Below, in pieces: positions 13,900-25,079 of a stretch of 64,000 nucleotides of DNA. The notes beneath the pieces were generated by a model. It saw only the letters and a list, made by a program, of their open reading frames with translations, was not told the DNA's origin and did no database searches. Each line of letters begins with the position of its first letter. Positions within the stretch are counted from its first letter, which is position 1. Source of the DNA: Limibacillus halophilus (GTDB taxonomy: Bacteria > Pseudomonadota > Alphaproteobacteria > Kiloniellales > CECT-8803); contig NZ_JACHXA010000006.1 in NCBI RefSeq assembly GCF_014191775.1, forward strand, positions 62,001 through 126,000, read 5' to 3'. Made by a program: the position numbers and the translations under genes.

Positions 13900-14304
13900 A
13901 TGACTGATATGAAGGCTCTCACCGAAGCGGTTCATGAGTACGAGCAGACTTGCCGACATCCGGACCTTCCAGCATTCGAGATCAGCCCCGTCTATGACAC
14001 TCATACGAACTGGGACACCGGTTATCCGTTCGGAGATAGGGCCGGCTGCTATGCCTTCTTCGATGCTAACAAGAAGCTCGTCTATATAGGCAAGGCTTCC
14101 CTGAGCCACATTCTCGGCCGGAGGATTGATAGCTACTTCCTCCGCTCCGGCAGCTCACCAAGTGCCGTCCTAAAGCACCAGTGGGAGTCACCCCCTCGCT
14201 ATATCGTTTCGATCGCCGTTACCAAGCCTTACGAAGCCCCTTCCCTGGAAGAGTTCCTGATTGACAAACTCCAGCCATCGGAAAATTCGAGGGGACGACA
14301 CTAG
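13900..14304 (+). CDS. Small GIY-YIG domain protein
   Basis: A 134-residue protein that is almost entirely one GIY-YIG-like domain. GCY (49-51) and VYIG (61-64) form the signature, followed by GRRID with an Arg (R74/R75) in the catalytic position, Glu at 117/118 and Asn129 near the end. A strong AGGAGG lies five bases before ATG 13900. GIY-YIG domains make single-metal nucleases; stand-alone small versions occur in defence and mobile regions, but their targets are mostly unknown. It lies between the M15-like gene (divergent) and the XRE gene (convergent). Confidence 0.75.
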   Translation: MTDMKALTEAVHEYEQTCRHPDLPAFEISPVYDTHTNWDTGYPFGDRAGCYAFFDANKKLVYIGKASLSHILGRRIDSYFLRSGSSPSAVLKHQWESPPRYIVSIAVTKPYEAPSLEEFLIDKLQPSENSRGRH

Positions 14305-14885: not shown

Positions 14886-15161
14886 TCGTCTTTTCCTCAC
14901 TCAAAGTTCTAAAGTACTGAGTGAATTATAGACGGGCCGACTTGGGCGTTTCGTCGCGGTGACGCTGATACGTGCAGCAAACTGCATTAAATCAACCGAT
15001 TATTGAAAACGCCCAAAACGGCAGGCAAGATACTGCCGCCCTCGGATCATCATTGTTCGTCGCCAGGACTCGGTAAATGCTGGCACAACCACGATGCGGG
15101 GAAGATCGCTCAACGACCCTGCGAAATTGAGGCTCGAACCAAAAAGGATAGATACGGCAGA

Positions 15162-16718
15162 ATGGCCAAGGGAAAAAATACTAAAACCAATGGGAATGGC
15201 GCCAATCTTGGCTTCGAGGCGCAGCTCTGGGCGACGGCGGACAAGCTGCGCGGCAACATGGAACCTTCGGACTACAAGCACGTAGCCCTGGGTCTCATCT
15301 TTCTCAAGTACATCTCCGATGCCTTCGAGGCGAAGCGTACCAAACTCCTTAAGGACGAGTTGGCTGATGCGGAGGACCCGGAGGAATACCTGGCCGAGAA
15401 TGTCTTCTGGGTGCCGAAGGAGGCACGCTGGTCGCACCTCCAGGCGAGAGCCAAGCAGCCAACGATCGGCCGCGATATCGACGATGCCATGCTGGCCATC
15501 GAGGCCAGGAACGAGAGCCTGAAGGGAGTCCTGCCGAAGGATTACGCCCGCCCGGCCCTCAACAAGATCATGCTCGGCGAATTGATCGATCTCATCAGCG
15601 GCATCGGCATGGCAGAGGAAGCCGACCGCTCAAGGGATATCCTGGGCCGTGTCTACGAGTACTTCCTTGGCGGCTTCGCTGGAGCCGAGGGCAAGCGCGG
15701 CGGGGAGTTCTACACCCCCCGCTCTGTGGTCAGGTTGCTGGTCGAGATGTTGGAGCCCTACAAGGGCCGAATCTATGACCCCTGCTGCGGCTCCGGCGGC
15801 ATGTTTGTCCAGTCCGAGAAGTTCGTGGAGGAGCACGGCGGCCGCATCGGCGATATCGCCATCTACGGCCAGGAAAGCAACTATACCACCTGGCGGCTTG
15901 CCAAGATGAACCTGGCGGTGCGCGGCTTCGACGCCGACCTCCGCTGGAACAACGAGGGCAGCTTCCACAAGGACGAACTGAAGGACCTGAAAGCCGACTA
16001 CATCCTCGCCAATCCGCCCTTTAACATTTCTGATTGGGGCGGCGACCGGCTGCGGGAAGACGCGCGCTGGAAGTTCGGCGTCCCTCCGGCCGGCAACGCG
16101 AACTACGGGTGGCTACAGCACATCCACCATCACCTTGCGCCGAACGGCACGGCGGGCGTGGTGCTCGCCAATGGTTCCATGTCCTCTGGCCAGTCCGGCG
16201 AGGGCGATATCCGCCGCGCCATGGTCGAAGGCGACGTGGTGGACTGCATGATCGCCCTGCCCGGCCAGCTCTTTTACTCGACCCAGATTCCGGCCTGCCT
16301 TTGGTTCCTGAGCCGCAACAAGAACCCCGGAAAAGGGTGGCGCGACCGGCGCGGTGAGGTCCTGTTTATCGACGCCCGCAAGCTCGGTCACATGGTCGAC
16401 CGCACGCGCAAGGAATTCTCCGGCAATGATATTGAGAAGATCGTCGGCACCTACCACGCCTGGCGCGGCGAACCGGACGCGGACGCCTACAAGGATGTGC
16501 CGGGCTTCTGCAAGGCTGCGACCCTCGAGGAGATTAGAGAGCACAACCACGTTCTCACACCGGGCCGCTATGTCGGCGCGGAGGCGGCAGAGGAAGACGA
16601 TGTGCCCTTCGAGGAGCGGTTCACGGAGTTGAAGGAGACGCTGGCCGAGCAGTTTGCCGAGGCCGAGACTCTTTCATCAACAATTGAAGCAAAACTAGCT
16701 CAGATTGAGGCCGTGTGA
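15162..16718 (+). CDS. hsdM: Type I RM DNA methyltransferase subunit HsdM
   Basis: N6-adenine methyltransferase subunit of a type I restriction-modification system, 518 residues from ATG 15162. The frame extends to a TTG at 15003, but HsdM similarity begins with [15 protein letters not shown] just after ATG 15162. The SAM-binding motif [10 protein letters not shown] is at about 206 and the catalytic NPPF at 284-287. With HsdS it would methylate host DNA, and with HsdR it forms the restriction complex. It is the first gene of a six-gene operon, and its stop overlaps the hsdS start by one base. Confidence 0.96.
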
Positions 16719-17983
16719 TGGCGTGGCCAATGCTCTCAGTAGCCGAATGCGTCGAAGCAATAATCGACTATCGCGGCAAGACGCCCCCGAAATCTCCAAT
16801 TGGCATCCCAACGCTCACCGCGGCGAATGTGAAGAACGGTCGCATCGACAAATCGAGCATTTCATTCGTTTCACACGAGACATACGAAGCCTGGACCACA
16901 CGCGGGCTCCCGGCGCCGAATGATGTTCTGATTACAACCGAAGCACCTGTTGGAGAGGTCGCGCCGTTCCCTGGTGACCAGACCTATCTAATCACCCGCC
17001 GCCTCATTGCTCTTCGCGCAAAAAGAAATCAGGTTGATCCAGCATTCCTTTTGTACACACTCCTCAACCCAGAAACCAAAGAACGGCTCTTAAGCGGCGC
17101 GCGTGGATCAACTGTTCCGCGCGTTCTCAAGACTGACATAACAGGCCTACAAATATCGGTGCCGGACATTGGTGTTCAGCGATCTATCGCCAGCCTTCTC
17201 CGCGCGATCGATGACAAGATCGAGCTGAACCGGCGGATGAACGAGACGCTGGAGGCGATGGCGCGGGCGATCTTCAAGGACTGGTTTGTCGATTTCGGCC
17301 CGACCCGCGCCAAGGCCGAAGGTCGCCCCCCTTACCTCGCCCCCGAAATCTGGGACCTCTTCCCCGACGCTGTCGACGAAGAGGGCATGCCGGTGGGGTC
17401 GAGGCAGGGGACCCTTGCGGATGTTGCGGACTCACCGAGACGCGGAGTCAGTCCGGCCGATGTCGCCGAAGACACGCCTTATATCGGCTTAGAGCATATG
17501 CCGCGCCGTTCGATTGCACTCTCAGAGTGGGAAGGCGCGGGGAAGGTCACGAGCAATAAGTCGGTATTCAAGAAGGGTGAGTTCCTGTTCGGGAAACTCC
17601 GGCCGTACTTCCACAAGGTCGGGTTCGCCCCGCTGAGCGGCATTTGTTCGACCGACATCGTTGTCGTGGTCCCGCGAGCCCCAGAGTGGGGAGCCTACAC
17701 TCTCGCCTGCCTATCTTCGGACGAGTTCGTGGACTACACGGATCAGACATCGACCGGGACGAAGATGCCGCGCACGAGCTGGAAGACAATGGGACAATAC
17801 AAGGTTTGCCTCCCATCAGCGCAGATCACTCGCGCCTTTCAGAACTTGGTGCAGCCGCTTCTTGATCGTATGCGTGCGAACATTCATGAAGCTCGCACGC
17901 TCGCCCAAACCCGCGACCTCCTCCTCCCGAAACTCATGTCCGGCGAGATTCGCCTCCGTGACGCGGAGAAGGCGGTCACATGA
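16718..17983 (+). CDS. hsdS: Type I RM specificity subunit HsdS
   Basis: DNA-recognition subunit of 421 residues, with two target-recognition domains separated by conserved helices. The first ends in SIASLLRAIDDKIELNRRMN, followed by a helical spacer (LEAMARAIFKDWFVDFGP). The second ends in LVQPLLDRMRANIHEARTL and LLLPKLMSGEI. Both half-site readers appear intact, so a bipartite target is expected. The ATG at 16718 overlaps the hsdM stop as TGATG; an in-frame GTG at 16715 is also possible. Its own stop overlaps the next gene by ATGA. Confidence 0.95.
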   Translation: MAWPMLSVAECVEAIIDYRGKTPPKSPIGIPTLTAANVKNGRIDKSSISFVSHETYEAWTTRGLPAPNDVLITTEAPVGEVAPFPGDQTYLITRRLIALRAKRNQVDPAFLLYTLLNPETKERLLSGARGSTVPRVLKTDITGLQISVPDIGVQRSIASLLRAIDDKIELNRRMNETLEAMARAIFKDWFVDFGPTRAKAEGRPPYLAPEIWDLFPDAVDEEGMPVGSRQGTLADVADSPRRGVSPADVAEDTPYIGLEHMPRRSIALSEWEGAGKVTSNKSVFKKGEFLFGKLRPYFHKVGFAPLSGICSTDIVVVVPRAPEWGAYTLACLSSDEFVDYTDQTSTGTKMPRTSWKTMGQYKVCLPSAQITRAFQNLVQPLLDRMRANIHEARTLAQTRDLLLPKLMSGEIRLRDAEKAVT

Positions 17984-18810
17984 ACCAGCCTTGGGCAAAT
18001 AGCGAGCCGCTCTCCTCCAGCGAAACCTTCGAGGAGGTTCATCAGGGCCTGACGGTCCGCCTCGTCATGACGCGGCGCGACAACTTCGAGATGTGTGATG
18101 CAGACGATCCGGTCTCGACAGTCGCGGCAAAAAACACGAACCGTTACGACTTCATTCCGGTGATGTCGGCATCGGCTAAGGGCGAACGCATCATCGGACT
18201 CTTCTACGCTGCCCCCTACTTCAAAACACCGCCGCCCAAGGGCTGCATCAAGGACCACCTCGTGCCGTTGGACGAGGAAAACCTGATCGGCGCCGACGCG
18301 AGCATTCTGGCCTTCATCCTGGAGGCAGACACGAAGCCCTGCCGCCTCGTTCTCTCCGGCGGTGGCATCTGCGGCCTCGTCACACTCTCAGACCTCCAGA
18401 AGCTTCCCGTCCGGGCAGCCCTTTTCGCTCTCATAACAGGCTTCGAGATCACCATGGCTGAGGCAATCCGGAATCGGCACCCAACGGACGAAACTTGGAT
18501 GGAGTTGTTGAGTGAGGAGCGCCTGACTGAAACTCGGAAGAAAATTGACGCCAGCAAAAAGAGCGAGAGTTTTGTTGACGCCCTCCTTTTCACCGAATTC
18601 GCTGACAAGAAGACAATCATCAAGAAGTCCATCGCCCTCAGCATAAGCAAAAATCAACTCGAAGTTAGGCTGACTGAGATTCAAAAATTTAGAGACATGG
18701 TTGCACACGCCAATGAGTACGCACCCTCCCCTGAAGAGGCGAAAATGGTTTGCGCAACCGTGCGTGACCTTATTGATCTACGAAAACTCATTGCGGAGAC
18801 ACCGGGATGA
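17980..18810 (+). CDS. CBS-like protein with a C-terminal HEPN-type motif
   Basis: A 276-residue protein coupled by ATGA overlaps to hsdS before it and the next HEPN-like gene after it. The N-terminal half has two segments with the shape of CBS repeats: DDPVSTVAAKNTNRYDFIPV at about 45-64 and a later CRLVLSGGGICGLVTLSDLQ. CBS pairs commonly bind adenine nucleotides. The helical C-terminal half ends with FRDMVAHAN; R238-D-x3-H243 fits the R-x4-6-H active site of HEPN ribonucleases. I infer a nucleotide-sensing domain joined to a possible RNase. No close described family is recognised, so the combination needs structural confirmation. Confidence 0.6.
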   Translation: MNQPWANSEPLSSSETFEEVHQGLTVRLVMTRRDNFEMCDADDPVSTVAAKNTNRYDFIPVMSASAKGERIIGLFYAAPYFKTPPPKGCIKDHLVPLDEENLIGADASILAFILEADTKPCRLVLSGGGICGLVTLSDLQKLPVRAALFALITGFEITMAEAIRNRHPTDETWMELLSEERLTETRKKIDASKKSESFVDALLFTEFADKKTIIKKSIALSISKNQLEVRLTEIQKFRDMVAHANEYAPSPEEAKMVCATVRDLIDLRKLIAETPG

Positions 18811-19640
18811 GCAGCCTCACGGATATCGAGAAACGATACCTGGAGAAGCTTCTCGGTATGGAGAGTGGCTATGTCCTGGACTTTAGCGATGCAACCTATG
18901 GCGAGTTTTTCGCCAGCCACGGAATCAACATCCATAGCAAAAAATACCAGACCCACGGTCCTTCAAAAGCCAAAAAAATGCGCGCCTTTTGGCAACAGGA
19001 ACCGGATGCTGTCGTCGGACGTGTTCTTGCTGAGATGGTCAAATCTTACGAGGCAAGCTGTGAGCTAGACGGCCGAACAATCGACAAACCGATCCTCGAG
19101 AGAACGAAGGCGATTGTCAAACGTCTGACCGGGAAGGTTGATGCGAATCGATCCTCTGACAGCGTAGATGACTTTCTCCATCAAGAGTTTGCGATCCCAA
19201 ACCTCCAGCGACTGCCAATTGAACCGGCGTTGGTGCCGATCATTGAGACCCGACTAGAGGAAGCGCGCAGAGCGCTTCGTGGAAAAGCCTTCCTATCTGT
19301 TGTCATCATGTGCGGTAGCGTACTGGAAGCCGTATTGCTGGCAAAAGCGCAAAGCGAACCGGCATTATTCAACAAGGCAATCTCAAGCCCCAAAGCCAAA
19401 GACGGAAAAGTGAGGCCGTTCCACGAATGGACGCTGGCACAATTCATTGACGTCGCCAGCGAGGTGGGCGTCCTAAAACTCGACGTGCAGAAGTTCAGTC
19501 ACGGACTGCGAGACTTTCGTAATTTCGTCCATCCTTATCAGCAGCTGGTCACAGGATTCGCGCCTGATGAGCACACTGCAAATGTGTGCTTTCAGGTGTT
19601 AAAGGCCGCACTGGCCAGCGTAGCGGGAGAGCGGAATTAG
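18807..19640 (+). CDS. Second HEPN-like protein, possible abortive-infection type
   Basis: A 277-residue soluble protein. The first 100 residues (DIEKRYLEKLLGMESGYVLDF, SKAKKMRAFW) look like an N-terminal module that recurs on varied defence or stress proteins, recalled from experience and not checked. The C-terminal half is helical and contains LRDFRNFVHP: R235 and R238 stand seven and four residues before H242, consistent with an HEPN-type R-x(n)-H pair, and the Asn after R238 is typical. It overlaps the preceding gene by ATGA and ends 53 bases before the DUF262 gene. Two consecutive HEPN-like proteins with different N-terminal domains suggest a paired sensor/effector unit. Confidence 0.6.
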   Translation: MSSLTDIEKRYLEKLLGMESGYVLDFSDATYGEFFASHGINIHSKKYQTHGPSKAKKMRAFWQQEPDAVVGRVLAEMVKSYEASCELDGRTIDKPILERTKAIVKRLTGKVDANRSSDSVDDFLHQEFAIPNLQRLPIEPALVPIIETRLEEARRALRGKAFLSVVIMCGSVLEAVLLAKAQSEPALFNKAISSPKAKDGKVRPFHEWTLAQFIDVASEVGVLKLDVQKFSHGLRDFRNFVHPYQQLVTGFAPDEHTANVCFQVLKAALASVAGERN

Positions 19641-19693: not shown

Positions 19694-21829
19694 ATGAAGA
19701 TATCAACAGCACTAGATAAAATTGATGAGTACCAGCTCTTTGTTCCTGCATTTCAGCGGGAGTATGTGTGGAAGCGCGACGATGCCAAACAGCTCGTGGA
19801 TTCCCTAATCAAGGAGTATCCCACGGGCACAATGCTGACCTGGGAAACCAATAATCCGCCTGAGCTGAAAGGCCCGTATAAATACGATGAAAAGCAAGGT
19901 GCGGTTCGTATCCTCCTGGATGGACAGCAGCGTCTCACAACACTTTACATGCTTATCCGTGGCCAAATTCCGCCCTACTACACAGCGCCTGAAATCTTGA
20001 ACGATACGCGTGGGCTTCATGTCAACGTTGAGACGCTAGAGCTGGAGTACTACTCCAAAACAAAAATGGCGAACGACCCCCGTTGGCAGAACATCACAGA
20101 CGTTTTTCAGCGTAAGGTTCGAGCGAAGGACATTGTCCGCGATCTGGAGAAAAAGGGAGATGAGGTTAGCCGGGAGCGTGATGATCTGCTCGATGACAAT
20201 ACGCGTGCAATCGAGAATATTCTTGATCGCGAGTTTCCCGAGCAAACTGTTCCGGTCAAGGCAACGGTGCGCGAGGCCATCGATATTTTCTACAAGGTCA
20301 ATGCGAGCGGCGTCTCTTTAACCGATGCAGAATTGGCTCTCGCTCAAATTTCGGGCTACTGGCCCGAAGCACGGGACATATTCAAGCGCAAACTGTCTGA
20401 GCTGCAGGGTAAGGGCTACGTATTTAAACTGGATTTCATCGTCTATGTACTGTTGGGATGCCTGTACCACCTCGGCTCGGACATGAAGAAGCTTCATGGT
20501 CCGGAAAACAACGAGACGATCCGTGACGCGTGGAAACTTCTTGATGAACAGGTGCTGGACTATGTTGCCAGCATTATGCGTTCACACGCGTTTGTGGACC
20601 ATACAGACGAGATCAACTCCGTTTATGCACTCGTGCCCATTATTGTTTACTGCTTCGATAAGGGTGGGCAGCACCTGAACGACTACGAAATTCGTAAGCT
20701 CGTCAAATGGTTCTACTACTCCCAGATCAGGTCGCGGTACGTAAACCAACTGCCACAAAAGCTTGATCGTGACCTTCGCACCATTAAGGAGGCAGAGAAT
20801 GCCTTCGACGAATTGCTCGCAGTCATAAAGGAAGAACGCAGGCTCGAGATAACGCCGGACGAGTTTGTGGGGCGCTCAATATCCCATCCATTGTTTGGCT
20901 TGGTTCGCTGGTATTTGAAAAGCAAAGGGGCCTTCTGTTTTACAACAGGAGTCAAATTGCGACAGGCAATGGGGGAAAAATATAAACTTGAGAACGATCA
21001 TATTTTCCCGTTCTCGAGACTCAAGGCGCTGGGATATGGACGCGAAAATCGTCTGAAGTACTCGTTGGCTCAAGAGCTGACGAACCGCGCTATCCTCACT
21101 CAATTTGCCAATCGCAGCAAAGGCGCAATGACCGCAAAAGACTATCTAGGTGCCGTTAAGGAACGGTTCCCGGACGTCTTGGCGTTGCAATGCATCCCAG
21201 AAGACCCTGAATTGTGGGAAATCGAAAATTACGAAGGGTTTCTCCAGGCTCGTCGTAAAAAGCTGTCTGAAGACTTGAATGCTTTTCTAGAAGGAATCAC
21301 TGAAACCAAACCCCCTGCGGTTCCTATCACGCTCGAAGAGATGATTGCCGAGGGCGAAGGCGAAGAACTGGAGTTCAAATCTTCGCTACGTTGGGATTTC
21401 GTGGAAGGTTCTGTGAATAAGAAGCTGGAAGACGTTGTCGTAAAGACCATCGCTGCGTTCGCCAACGGGCAAGGGGGAACCTTGCTGATCGGCGTACAAG
21501 ACGATGGTGAAGTGCTCGGACTCGAGGGTGACTATCACGCTCTTGGCGAAGCCGACCGTGACAAGTTTGAGTTGCACCTCCGAAATATTTTGAACAAATC
21601 CTTCGGCACCTCATTTGTGGCAAGCAGGGTAAGGGTTTCGTTCCCGTCGGTTGGCGATACCGAGATTTGCCAGTTGGACATCCAGTCATCGGCGAAGCCG
21701 CTGGTGATTACCGTGAAGGATAAGAACGGGCAGACCCAGGAGAAATTTTACGTAAGGAGCGGAAACTCATCACAGGAAATTTCTCTAAGCGAGATGCAGT
21801 CTTATTTGGCTGAGAGGTTTCGGGCGTGA
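19694..21829 (+). CDS. DUF262 - HNH - AlbA_2 fusion protein
   Basis: A 711-residue three-domain protein. Residues 1-230 are DUF262, a ParB/sulfiredoxin-like NTPase-type domain, with the signature DGQQR (76-80) and [12 protein letters not shown] (199-210). Residues about 330-530 are the DUF1524-like HNH nuclease region with [11 protein letters not shown] (433-443) and a later NRA. From about 554 there is an AlbA_2/Schlafen-type domain: EELEFKSS, then [18 protein letters not shown] (584-601) and a YVRSGNSS tail. DUF262 plus DUF1524 is the GmrSD layout, known for type IV restriction of modified phage DNA; an AlbA_2 tail is unusual. It lies inside the hsd operon, 31 bases before hsdR. Confidence 0.85.
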
Positions 21830-21860
21830 CTTGTTTGATTGTTTTTGGATGGGGGAATGC

Positions 21861-24800
21861 ATGAGTCGCTTCTCCGAAAGTCACGTCGAGGAAGCGGCGC
21901 TTGAGATACTGGCGGAGCTTGGCTACGAGCTGGCGCACGGCCCCGATATCTGCCCTGACGGCCCAAAACCTGAGCGTGAGGCTTACGCCGACATTTTGCT
22001 TGAAGGGCGGCTAAGGGCTGCCATCGACCGGCTCAATCCCACTATCCCTGGTGACGCACGCCGCGACGCGCTAAAGCAACTGCTTGCGGTGGCAAGCCCA
22101 TCCCTAATCGAGGAAAATCGCCGGCTGCACAAAGCCATTATCGAGGGCGTGGATGTCGAGTTCTACGACGATGATAACGCGATCCAATACGCAAAGGTGC
22201 AACTCGTCGATTATGATGATCCGGCCAGCAACGACTGGTTGGCTGTGAACCAGTTCACCGTGATCGAAAGCTCTTCCAACCGCCGCCCTGATATCGTTTT
22301 TTTCGTAAACGGCATTCCTCTTGGCGTTATCGAACTTAAGAACCCCGGCGATGAAAATGCCACGCTCACCAGCGCCTACAATCAGCTCCAGACCTACAAG
22401 GCAGAAATCCCATCACTCTTTCGGACCAATGCAGTTCTTGTGATTTCAGACGGCCTGAAAGCACGGATCGGCTCTTTGACGGCGGACCAGGAGCGCTTCA
22501 TGCCCTGGCGCACCACGGATGGGGCGGAGGTCGCGCCCAAAGGGCAGCCGGAGATGGCCATCTTGATCAAGGGCGTTTTCCAGCAACAGCGGTTCCTTGA
22601 ACTGATTCGCGACTTCACGGTGTTTGGCAGCAATGGGTCGGAGTTGATCAAAATCATCGCCGGCTATCATCAATTCCATGCCGTCAAGCGGGCGGTCGTA
22701 TCCACATTGCGCGCGCTGCCCTCTGCGCCAGGTGTTGTACCCGCCATCGGCGTGCGGGAAGACCCGCGAAAATTCGGTTTGCCAGACGTTAGTTCCCAGC
22801 ATGAAGGGGATAAGCGCATCGGCGTGATCTGGCATACTCAAGGCTCAGGGAAAAGCCTTCTGATGGCCTTTTATGCCGGGCAGCTTGTACGCCTGGAGGA
22901 ACTTGAAAACCCGACCATCGTTGTTATCACTGATCGCAATGACTTGGACGATCAGTTGTTTGGAACCTTTTCCATGTGCAGCGACCTGGTGAGGCAAACG
23001 CCCATTCGGGTGGAAGACCGGAACGATCTACGTACCGAACTGGCCCGAGCCTCCGGTGGTGTCATCTTCACCACTATCCAAAAGTTCAGCCCAGCCACCG
23101 ACGAGGCGCACTTCCCTCTGCTTAGCGACCGACGCAATGTGGTGGTGATTGCCGACGAAGCACACCGCAGCCAGTATGGCTTTCGAGCAAAAATGAAGCA
23201 GAAGACCGGGGAAATATCCTACGGCTTTGCAAAACACCTTCGTGATGCCCTACCCAATGCCTCCTTCATCGGCTTCACCGGCACACCCGTGGAGAAGGAG
23301 GACGTCAACACACCCGCGGTTTTTGGACACTACATTGACGTCTATGACATCACCCGCGCGGTCGAGGATGAGGTAACGGTTCCGATTTACTATGAAAGCC
23401 GCTTAGCCCGTATAGAGCTGGACGAAGATGAGCGGCCGAAGATCGATGCCGAGATCGCCGAACTGACGGAAGACGACGATCTTCCTGAAAGCGAGAAGCT
23501 CAAAAGGAAATGGTCAACAGTCGAAGCGCTGGTTGGGGCAGAAAACCGCCTTGCGCTTGTAGCCCAAGACCTGGTTGATCACTTTGAGAGCCGCGTAGCC
23601 GCTATGGACGGCAAGGCCATGATCGTTTGCATGAGCCGGAGGATTTGCATTGCCCTCTATGAAGAGATCATTCGGCTGCGACCCGATTGGCACAGCGATG
23701 ATGACGAGGATGGGAGCATAAAGATTGTGATGACTGGCGCCGCTTCGGACCCAGTGGAGTGGCAGAAGCATATCGGTGGGAAGAAGCGCCGGGAGCTTCT
23801 CGCGAAGCGCGCCAAAGACCCCGTGGATTTCCTCAAATTGGTGATCGTTCGCGATATGTGGCTTACCGGCTTCGACGCTCCCAGCATGCACACCATGTAC
23901 GTTGATAAGCCGATGCGAGGGCACGGACTCATGCAAGCCATTGCTCGCGTCAACCGGGTCTTTCGTGACAAACCTGCCGGATTGATCGTTGATTACATTG
24001 GCATCGCCCAGAACCTTAAGAATGCGCTCGGCCAGTATTCTGGCAGTGACCAAAAGCATGCTGGCATTGACGAAGCAGAAGCCGTAGCGGTGATGCTAGA
24101 GAAGTATGAAATCGTGGCGGGCATGTTCCATGGATTTGACTACCAGACAGGATTAGGGGGTGCGCCTCTACAGCGATTGGCTGCTCTCGCTGCCGCGATG
24201 GAGTGGGTTCTCGACATGCAGCAGCGAGAAGCGGCCAAGGAGGATACCGAGGAGGGTAAGAAACGCGCCCACCGACGCTTCAACGACGCCGTCCTGTCTC
24301 TTTCCAAAGCCTTTGCACTTGCTTCCGCCAGTGACGAGGCGCGCGAAATTCGAGATGAAGTCGGCTTCTTTCAAACTGTACGCGCCGCACTCGCTAAGAG
24401 CGCCCCGAATACAGGTAAGACAACAGCTGATCGCGACTTTGCCGTTCAGCAGATCATCAGTAGGGCAGTCATATCCACCGAGATCGTCGACATCCTAAAA
24501 GCAGCGGGACTGGAAACCCCTGATATATCTATTCTTTCTGATGAATTCTTAGCCGAGATTCAGGGCATGGAGAAAAAGAACCTTGCGATGGAGGCGCTAC
24601 GAAAGCTGATTAATGGCGAAATTCGCTCGCGGGATCGGATTAACGTCGTTGAGACCCGTGCGTTCTCAGAACGGCTAGAGGATGCCATTGCGCGATACCA
24701 TTCCAATGCACTGACGACTGCTGAGGTTGTTCAGGAACTGATCAAACTGGCAAAGGACATTCGAGCCGCGCATCAGCGCGGTGAGGAGGAAGGACTCAGT

Positions 24801-25079
24801 CGGGAGGAAATCTCCTTCTATGACGCTCTGGCCCAGAACGAGAGCGCGGTCGAGGTGATGGGGGATGAACAACTCCGGGTGATTGCCCAAGAATTGCTAA
24901 ATAGCCTCAAGACAAATGCCTCGGTTGATTGGCAACACCGGGAGGCAGCTCGCGCCCGCATGCGCGTTCTGGTGAAACGCATCTTACGAAAATATGGCTA
25001 CCCACCCGATCTTCAGGATGCCGCTGTCCAGACCGTTCTTCAACAGGCTGAGGCACTTTCTGCACGTTGGGCCGCTTAG
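21861..25079 (+). CDS. hsdR: Type I RM restriction/translocase subunit HsdR
   Basis: Motor and nuclease subunit, 1072 residues from ATG 21861, which has GGGGGA six bases upstream; the frame opens at a TTG at 21831. The N-terminal nuclease shows the PD-(D/E)xK core as VIELKNPGD (ELK at 158-160). The superfamily 2 helicase has Walker A GSGKS (328-332), DEAH (432-435), FTGTP, and the C-terminal helicase lobe with [19 protein letters not shown] helical C terminus binds HsdM. All motifs are intact. The last 60 residues have a damaged relative at 2592-2803. Last gene of the operon. Confidence 0.96.

Follow-up and report, generated by a model that had tools for sequence, protein, structure and literature searches.

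In this report, we found that a single 711-residue protein joins a GmrSD-type restriction core (DUF262 and HNH parts) to a C-terminal Schlafen-type AlbA_2 domain. It is encoded at positions 19694-21829 of the window, by which we mean the whole 64,000-nucleotide stretch of Limibacillus halophilus DNA under analysis (all features of the window given below lie on the + strand). With a probability that we put at about one half, the protein is a two-nuclease defence enzyme in one chain: a type IV-like nuclease that senses DNA and has a Schlafen-type RNase built in as its second effector. RNA cleavage we infer from the fold of the C-terminal domain, its acidic triad and the strict conservation of that triad, and the coupling of the two activities from the fusion itself; the substrate, the trigger and the abortive outcome proposed below are likewise conjectural.

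The reading frame opens with an ATG at 19694, with a ribosome-binding-like CGGAG (found by eye) ending 7 bases upstream, and its stop codon ends at 21829. The architecture is drawn from Pfam, a family alignment, and an AlphaFold model with its structure matches. A preliminary description had given the coordinates, strand, length and motif positions (DGQQR at residues 76-80, GGTLLIGV at 594-601) exactly, ENDHIFPF lies at 433-440, and the domain calls of the description were right: GmrSD_N and SLFN_AlbA_2 exceed their Pfam cut-offs, and the HNH part is identified by conserved residues and structure matches. A frame error or a chimeric contig as the source of the fusion is ruled out by the single-frame, full-length occurrence of the protein in 50 of 62 related loci. 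Both isolates and metagenome bins are found among the full-length carriers, as judged from record titles. NCBIfam holds no match to the fusion at E <= 0.01. The best PADLOC match is HEC-05, a candidate defence protein (residues 2-533, E 6.2e-43, profile positions 27-594 of 600), whose profile ends with the GmrSD part and has no AlbA_2. The AlphaFold2 model was built from 45 family rows (alignment A1) and has a mean pLDDT of 86.2; the relative orientation of its domains is uncertain (pTM 0.66, rmsd to BrxU 16-17).

The N-terminal part is a GmrSD_N domain (DUF262, a ParB/Srx-fold NTPase) spanning residues 5-218 (19706-20347), with a Pfam PF03235 match at E 1.2e-29 and 104.3 bits against a cut-off of 33.2. 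Residues 1-207 match ParB folds (Z 4.7-6.6), and VIA-align superposes residues 1-533 on the type IV enzyme BrxU (7p9m, Z 21.9, 453 residues, rmsd 16.7), the high rmsd reflecting a rotation between the domains. Parts of the model also match SspE (7dri, Z 11.7) and one chain of the DndBCDE-DndI entry 9jfl (Z 10.4). The GmrD/DUF1524-like HNH region occupies about residues 399-514 (20888-21235). The Pfam DUF1524 model (GmrSD_C) has no match to the window protein at E <= 0.01 and matches two haloarchaeal fusions below its cut-off; the HNH assignment is made because of the conserved residues, the matches to BrxU and to the C-terminal part of SspE, and weak matches of about residues 385-519 to Cas9 HNH domains (Z 4.2-5.1).

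Conservation was counted over 51 full-length rows, comprising the window protein and 50 of the 62 loci; the remaining twelve (L016, L025, L039, L044, L049, L051, L055, L057, L059, L061, L062 and L063) are truncated where a contig ends, shortened, or broken across frames. Identical in 51/51 are DGQQR (19919-19933), D435 and H436 of the HNH region (20996-21001), E555, E560, K562 and D603. N464 and N473 are kept in at least 50 of the 51, and in A1 none of its 45 rows departs from D435, H436, N464 or N473. A broader comparison took in 12 fused or swapped proteins, the window protein among them; there, histidine replaces D435 in five distant fusions (L065, L066, L071, L072 and L118), and in L071 the positions of N464 and N473 are not aligned with asparagine. 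With a DUF262 part bearing DGQQR and an HNH part bearing the DH motif and the asparagines, the core shows two sequence hallmarks of the GmrSD family.

The Schlafen-type AlbA_2 domain covers residues 545-711 (21326-21826). Its Pfam match (SLFN_AlbA_2, PF04326) runs over residues 555-696 at E 1.4e-16 and 61.5 bits, the cut-off being 25.3. Residues 543-711 match the uncharacterised bacterial protein DIP2311 (3lmm, Z 13.2) and SAMD9 with DNA (7ksp, Z 12.0), and the C-terminal part also matches the tRNase domain of rabbit SAMD9 (9o0d, Z 11.8, 152 residues, rmsd 3.7). Schlafens match mostly over residues 544-703, with Z 6.9-9.8 across SLFN11 (up to 9.8), SLFN13 (8.9), SLFN14 (6.9-9.3), SLFN5 and SLFN12. 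The preliminary description had allowed that the C-terminal part might prove to have another fold; the full-chain structure prediction gives AlbA_2 (Z 11.8-12.0 to SAMD9), and that possibility falls away. A profile built from the C-terminal domain (A2; 40 rows, among them the haloarchaeal plasmid copies L065 and L066 at 34-35% identity) finds SLFN11 (1.5e-11), SLFN12, SLFN14 and 5yd0 (SLFN13). Because SAMD9 is absent among the 17 sequences matched by this profile at E <= 0.1, the link to SAMD9 is one of fold only.

The residues of greatest interest are the acids of a predicted RNase triad: E555 (21356-21358) and E560 (21371-21373), which fall on both glutamates of the Schlafen E-x4-E-F-K motif, and D603 (21500-21502), which falls on the second aspartate of GVDD. 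Counting along the 5yd0 chain, they are the equivalents of SLFN13 E205, E210 and D248. In profile A2, 17 of 172 positions are invariant and include all three; a hand calculation puts the chance of this at about 8e-4 if positions were random. In SLFN13, as reported in PMC5862951, mutation of any of the three lowers cleavage, and E205A and E210A are inactive. SAMD9 and SAMD9L share the triad (E184/E196/D241 and E186/E198/D243; PMC11221667, also PMC12331169), and the SAMD9L translation block and antiviral effect are described as dependent on it (PMC11221667). Thus, AlbA_2 sequence, AlbA_2 fold and E/E/D triad are all present in the C-terminal domain. In the 12-protein check the triad is complete in 11, while L125 has asparagine for D603; two stand-alone AlbA_2 proteins are unscored at E555/E560, the match stopping short of there. 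The substitution in L125 is one point against an RNase. Another is that the fusion has a single AlbA_2 stretch by Pfam and not the pseudo-dimeric, two-lobe N-domain of the Schlafens, of which SLFN13 uses both lobes (PMC5862951); the SLFN chains align over one lobe only, from about residue 167 on.

The C-terminal module is mobile. In L115 (P0002; 4013-6160 on the - strand, genome G108), a 715-residue protein, an AlbA_2 tail 60% identical to that of the window protein follows an N-terminus with no Pfam match at E <= 0.1. Related AlbA_2 domains stand after a short N-terminus, membrane-bound-looking by eye, in L116 (4084-4890, 268 residues) and L117 (3597-4400, 267 residues). In L125 (P0003; 1495-3153 on the - strand, 552 residues), the region ahead of AlbA_2 shows by eye a motif like that of methylases and matches Methylase_S at E 0.031, below cut-off; the protein has the appearance of a methylase/specificity remnant joined to AlbA_2. 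Conversely, other GmrSD proteins carry other tails after the HNH part: RAMA in L101 (28-2226 on the - strand), DUF5655 in L112 (67-2268 on the - strand), and unassigned tails in L067, L069, L075 and L076. A slot for exchangeable effectors accounts for this variety better than a fixed structural extension does, but a slot for exchangeable readers would account for it as well. That the module sits on an unrelated N-terminus in L115, at 60% identity, is as one would expect of a portable effector.

The chief rival to the RNase reading is a binding-only AlbA_2 domain, that is, a module for nucleic-acid binding or target recognition (or dimerisation) on an ordinary type IV enzyme that has no RNase. 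RAMA is a predicted reader of modified DNA, and its place after the HNH part of L101, like that of DUF5655 in L112, fits a binding role for the tail slot. Further, AlbA_2 was called a DNA-binding domain by the authors of a study of pAgo proteins (PMC6299218), the SAMD9 AlbA_2 domain was crystallised with DNA (7ksp), and human SLFN5 binds tRNA without cutting it despite having the triad (PMC8789055), although the title of PDB entry 7cux mentions ssRNA cleaving by SLFN5. Binding to a phosphate backbone does not need a whole acidic triad, however, and yet the triad is invariant in 51/51 rows and recurs on the unrelated N-termini of L115, L116 and L117. The comparison with SLFN5 is also imperfect, in that the triad is poorly conserved among SLFN5 orthologues, by the same paper, and strictly conserved in the fusion family. 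On balance, we consider a binding-only domain rather unlikely, but it is the alternative to be taken most seriously.

The setting of the gene suggests a second alternative. The fusion lies in an operon with the order hsdM, hsdS, CBS-HEPN candidate, Abi-type HEPN candidate, fusion, hsdR, in which gene ends overlap or lie close together and the largest gap, 53 bases, directly precedes the fusion. The hsdM frame (15003-16718; Pfam N6_Mtase E 1.4e-107, HsdM_N E 4e-26) probably starts further in than its first codon, since the HsdM_N match begins at residue 72. The hsdS gene (16715-17983; Methylase_S E 1.2e-14, PADLOC Specificity_I) has its stop overlapped by the frame of a 276-residue protein (17980-18810) with CBS and DS11_antiphage matches below cut-off and a predicted HEPN motif, R-x4-H (RDMVAH), that is kept in two relatives. 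One of its relatives, L128, has CBS over the cut-off and a sub-threshold HEPN match; the plasmid records hold no relative of this neighbour. The next frame (18807-19640) encodes a 277-residue Abi-type protein, so called from an N-terminal part common to "abortive infection family" proteins and the Mrr-type protein L138. Its predicted C-terminal HEPN domain has a DUF4145 match below cut-off and an RN-x2-H motif, the residues of which (R238, N239 and H242) do not vary among five rows, and its relative L131 comes after an hsdS gene. The model of this protein (pLDDT 78.5) has no structure match at E <= 0.001; AbiA (0.26) and Csm6 (0.49) come closest, so its HEPN assignment stands at the level of the motif. 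The hsdR frame (21831-25079, with a likelier ATG at 21861) has Pfam matches to HSDR_N, SWI2_SNF2 and T1RH-like_C. This one restriction-modification (RM) operon may therefore hold three RNA-cutting modules, the fusion and the two HEPN candidates; HEPN proteins are known in operons with RM systems (PMC3710099). The ends of the operon were not placed, because predicted promoters and terminators were in no clear excess over shuffled sequence (4 vs 5.3 and 14 vs 12.2). A small GIY-YIG domain protein is encoded just upstream (13900-14304; Pfam E 7.4e-06).

Linkage to RM genes recurs throughout the family. Of the 62 loci, 44 have flanks of 3 kb or more in both directions. In 30 of these 44, a same-strand gene resembling hsdM, hsdS or hsdR lies no more than 3 kb away, and in 23 an RM-like gene lies no more than 500 bp away; several such genes overlap the fusion or are 0-3 bp from it. 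The HsdM model behind these counts was built by iteration and also catches other methyltransferases; Pfam checks of neighbours cover 7 of the 62 loci and one neighbour in L004. With G for the fusion, complete gene orders are R-G-M-S (10 of 44), M-S-R-G (5), G-M-S-R (4) and M-S-G-R (3). Two of the 30 linked loci are not type I: L022 is MmeI-like and L033 is of Eco57I type. At 13 of the 44 loci no same-strand RM-like gene lies within 6 kb, so an RM system is not an obligate partner; of these 13, L016, L046 and L062 have one on the opposite strand, and L057 has a fragment below cut-off. At some loci without hsd genes the neighbours are DUF499/DUF1156 genes (L014), a HaeIII enzyme (L034), an AAA ATPase (L044) and a HEPN protein (L043).

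Such linkage is what one would expect if the type I RM complex silenced the fusion and phage inhibition of the RM enzyme released the RNase, by analogy with PrrC and EcoprrI. The four complete gene orders and the 23 of 44 loci with an RM-like gene within 500 bp are in keeping with this guard arrangement, as is the position between hsdS and hsdR, which is that of RloF (PMC4619093). It is nonetheless hard to reconcile with the 13 loci that have no same-strand RM-like gene within 6 kb (three with one on the other strand), with the MmeI-like and Eco57I-type partners of two linked loci, with the two haloarchaeal copies, which have no hsd gene annotated within about 12 kb, or with the Sinorhizobium copy, which precedes hsdM by 2.8 kb and is separated from it by three ORFs. 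Anticodon nucleases of the PrrC/RloC kind carry an ABC-type ATPase N-domain, and no PrrC-type ATPase domain is found in the fusion by Pfam at E <= 0.01. We thus regard a guard as distinctly unlikely. Least probable is that the triad cuts DNA as a second nuclease or nickase in the same chain: the metal site is generic and SAMD9 AlbA_2 was crystallised with DNA, but the tested members SLFN13 (PMC5862951) and SAMD9 (PMC12331169) cut tRNA and the SLFN5 core is without DNase activity (PMC8789055).

The fusion is widespread. A scan of genome contigs with six peptide patterns, a method biased to close relatives, gave the 62 loci, 43-82% identical, whose record titles name Pseudomonadota, Bacteroidota, Cyanobacteriota, Verrucomicrobiota, Chlorobiota, archaea and others; this spread across bacteria and archaea rules out confinement to one lineage. 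In a sample across phyla, 14 of 398 genomes have any match at 1e-15, and at least five of those 14 (G000, G305, G251, G281 and G156, in a check that leaves out G065 and G102) have GmrSD plus AlbA_2. DUF262 is present in 95 of 299 genomes, and profile A2 at 1e-10 matches 4 of 385 in the class sample. Three of 434 matching plasmid records hold the fusion over at least 80% of its length, those of a Sinorhizobium meliloti megaplasmid and two haloarchaeal plasmids, and all three name the full-length protein only a "DUF262" or "DUF2081" protein. Two patterns scanned against viral contigs gave no relatives from 52 pattern matches, and in each of the seven phage records that match, less than 80% of the query is covered. 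A viral structure library contains matching DUF262 proteins (best E 1.1e-08) and a Catovirus AlbA_2 match, probably a separate protein. The genome of the organism itself has a second DUF262 match outside the window (G000:C3:321335-321739) within a 362-residue open frame.

A quick tree of the core (42 rows, 26 of them fused, including 21 of the 51 full-length rows) requires three changes of the AlbA_2 label, and its starred branches force two. A single clade of fused cores is rejected by the AU test (p 0.0136), with the warning that long branches meet. A single origin of all GmrSD-AlbA_2 proteins is thus disfavored, and two or three joinings, or losses, of the two parts are the likelier reading of the tree.

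The fusion resembles BrxU and the GmrSD type IV enzymes through residue 533 and differs from them by the addition of 165 residues of AlbA_2 after the HNH part. The preliminary description had GmrSD enzymes normally ending after the HNH region, which is too strong: the extra domains listed for them include DUF4268, DUF4357 and DNA_binding_1 (Machnicka 2015, PMC4619093), a HEPN tail is also on record (PMC3710099), and RAMA and DUF5655 are added here. AlbA_2 is not among the extra domains named by Machnicka 2015, the main text of which, as available, contains neither "AlbA" nor "Schlafen". By the same paper, type I RM genes are the commonest neighbours of GmrSD genes, and RloF of Campylobacter jejuni is a DUF262 gene between hsdS and hsdR; the fusion has the corresponding place (M-S-x-x-fusion-R), the likeness being one of gene position alone. 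Position inside a type I RM operon is therefore already known, and the AlbA_2 extension is the part for which we found no description. Closest in plan is VNG7073, a DUF262-HNH(DUF2081)-HEPN fusion of 2013 (PMC3710099), which likewise has a GmrSD core and an RNase domain in one chain; the latter is HEPN there and Schlafen/AlbA_2, a predicted RNase, here. The SAMD9/SAMD9L tRNase domain and SLFN11, 12, 13 and 14 share with the fusion the AlbA_2 fold and the corresponding triad, whereas the fusion has a single lobe joined to a DNA-restriction core. Schlafen RNases beside BREX loci were proposed in 2026 as a backup effector in a methylation-based defence locus (PMC12839542); there the protein has minimal histidine-kinase and wHTH parts, and here the module is joined to a type IV nuclease. 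Published precedents exist both for GmrSD joined to a HEPN RNase and for Schlafen RNases next to BREX. The preliminary description had wondered whether the architecture was common and already characterised: common it is, at 62 loci, but no description was found in the literature searched, which consisted of partial texts and excluded preprints and most subscription papers. The accessible text of PMC10952713 contains no "AlbA" or "Schlafen", and no GmrSD-AlbA_2 fusion was met in that of PMC8713573. Such fusions may be covered in a 2025 preprint, cited in PMC12839542, that deals with phage defence by bacterial Schlafens.

How might a two-nuclease enzyme work? The GmrSD part, like BrxU, would bind and hydrolyse NTP through its DUF262 motifs and recognise incoming, probably modified DNA, which the HNH site, by homology, would cut. 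The AlbA_2 domain would be a Schlafen/SAMD9-type endoribonuclease, most likely against tRNA, with E555, E560 and D603 binding metal. It might be released once the GmrSD part engages DNA or NTP, and the resulting RNA cleavage would stop translation as a second, abortive layer. The preliminary description had proposed a coupling of DNA cutting to nucleic-acid sensing; we keep the coupling, but its direction is probably the reverse, DNA sensing being more likely to drive RNA cutting, with GmrSD as the likely sensor and DNA cutter, because the AlbA_2 domain keeps the acidic triad of an RNA-cutting site. In its hsdM-hsdS-hsdR setting, the enzyme would bring together type I restriction of unmodified DNA, type IV-like restriction of modified DNA and RNA-cutting effectors.

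In BrxU, an intertwined dimer comes apart on nucleotide binding, and modified DNA is cleaved along with hydrolysis and re-association (PMC8565348). We tentatively raise the more elaborate possibility, which we would not favor as a whole, of a DNA-to-RNA alarm in one chain, in which GmrSD senses and cuts modified DNA while an NTP-driven switch between dimer and monomer pairs or frees the AlbA_2 lobes into a tRNase. Restriction would come first and translation shutdown would follow if it failed, the fusion being the third RNA-cutting candidate in a layered restriction-plus-suicide operon, and the Schlafen module would be an interchangeable warhead, used on other N-termini too.

If the C-terminal RNase of the two-nuclease enzyme is active, the family would represent a conserved and widely distributed restriction enzyme whose single chain attacks DNA as well as RNA. 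It would also parallel, in microbes, the human antiviral Schlafen/SAMD9 tRNases, with a trigger, DNA engagement by the GmrSD core, that is directly testable. In that case, some proteins filed only as "DUF262 domain-containing" would be dual-effector enzymes, and Schlafen modules would have been swapped between different front ends.
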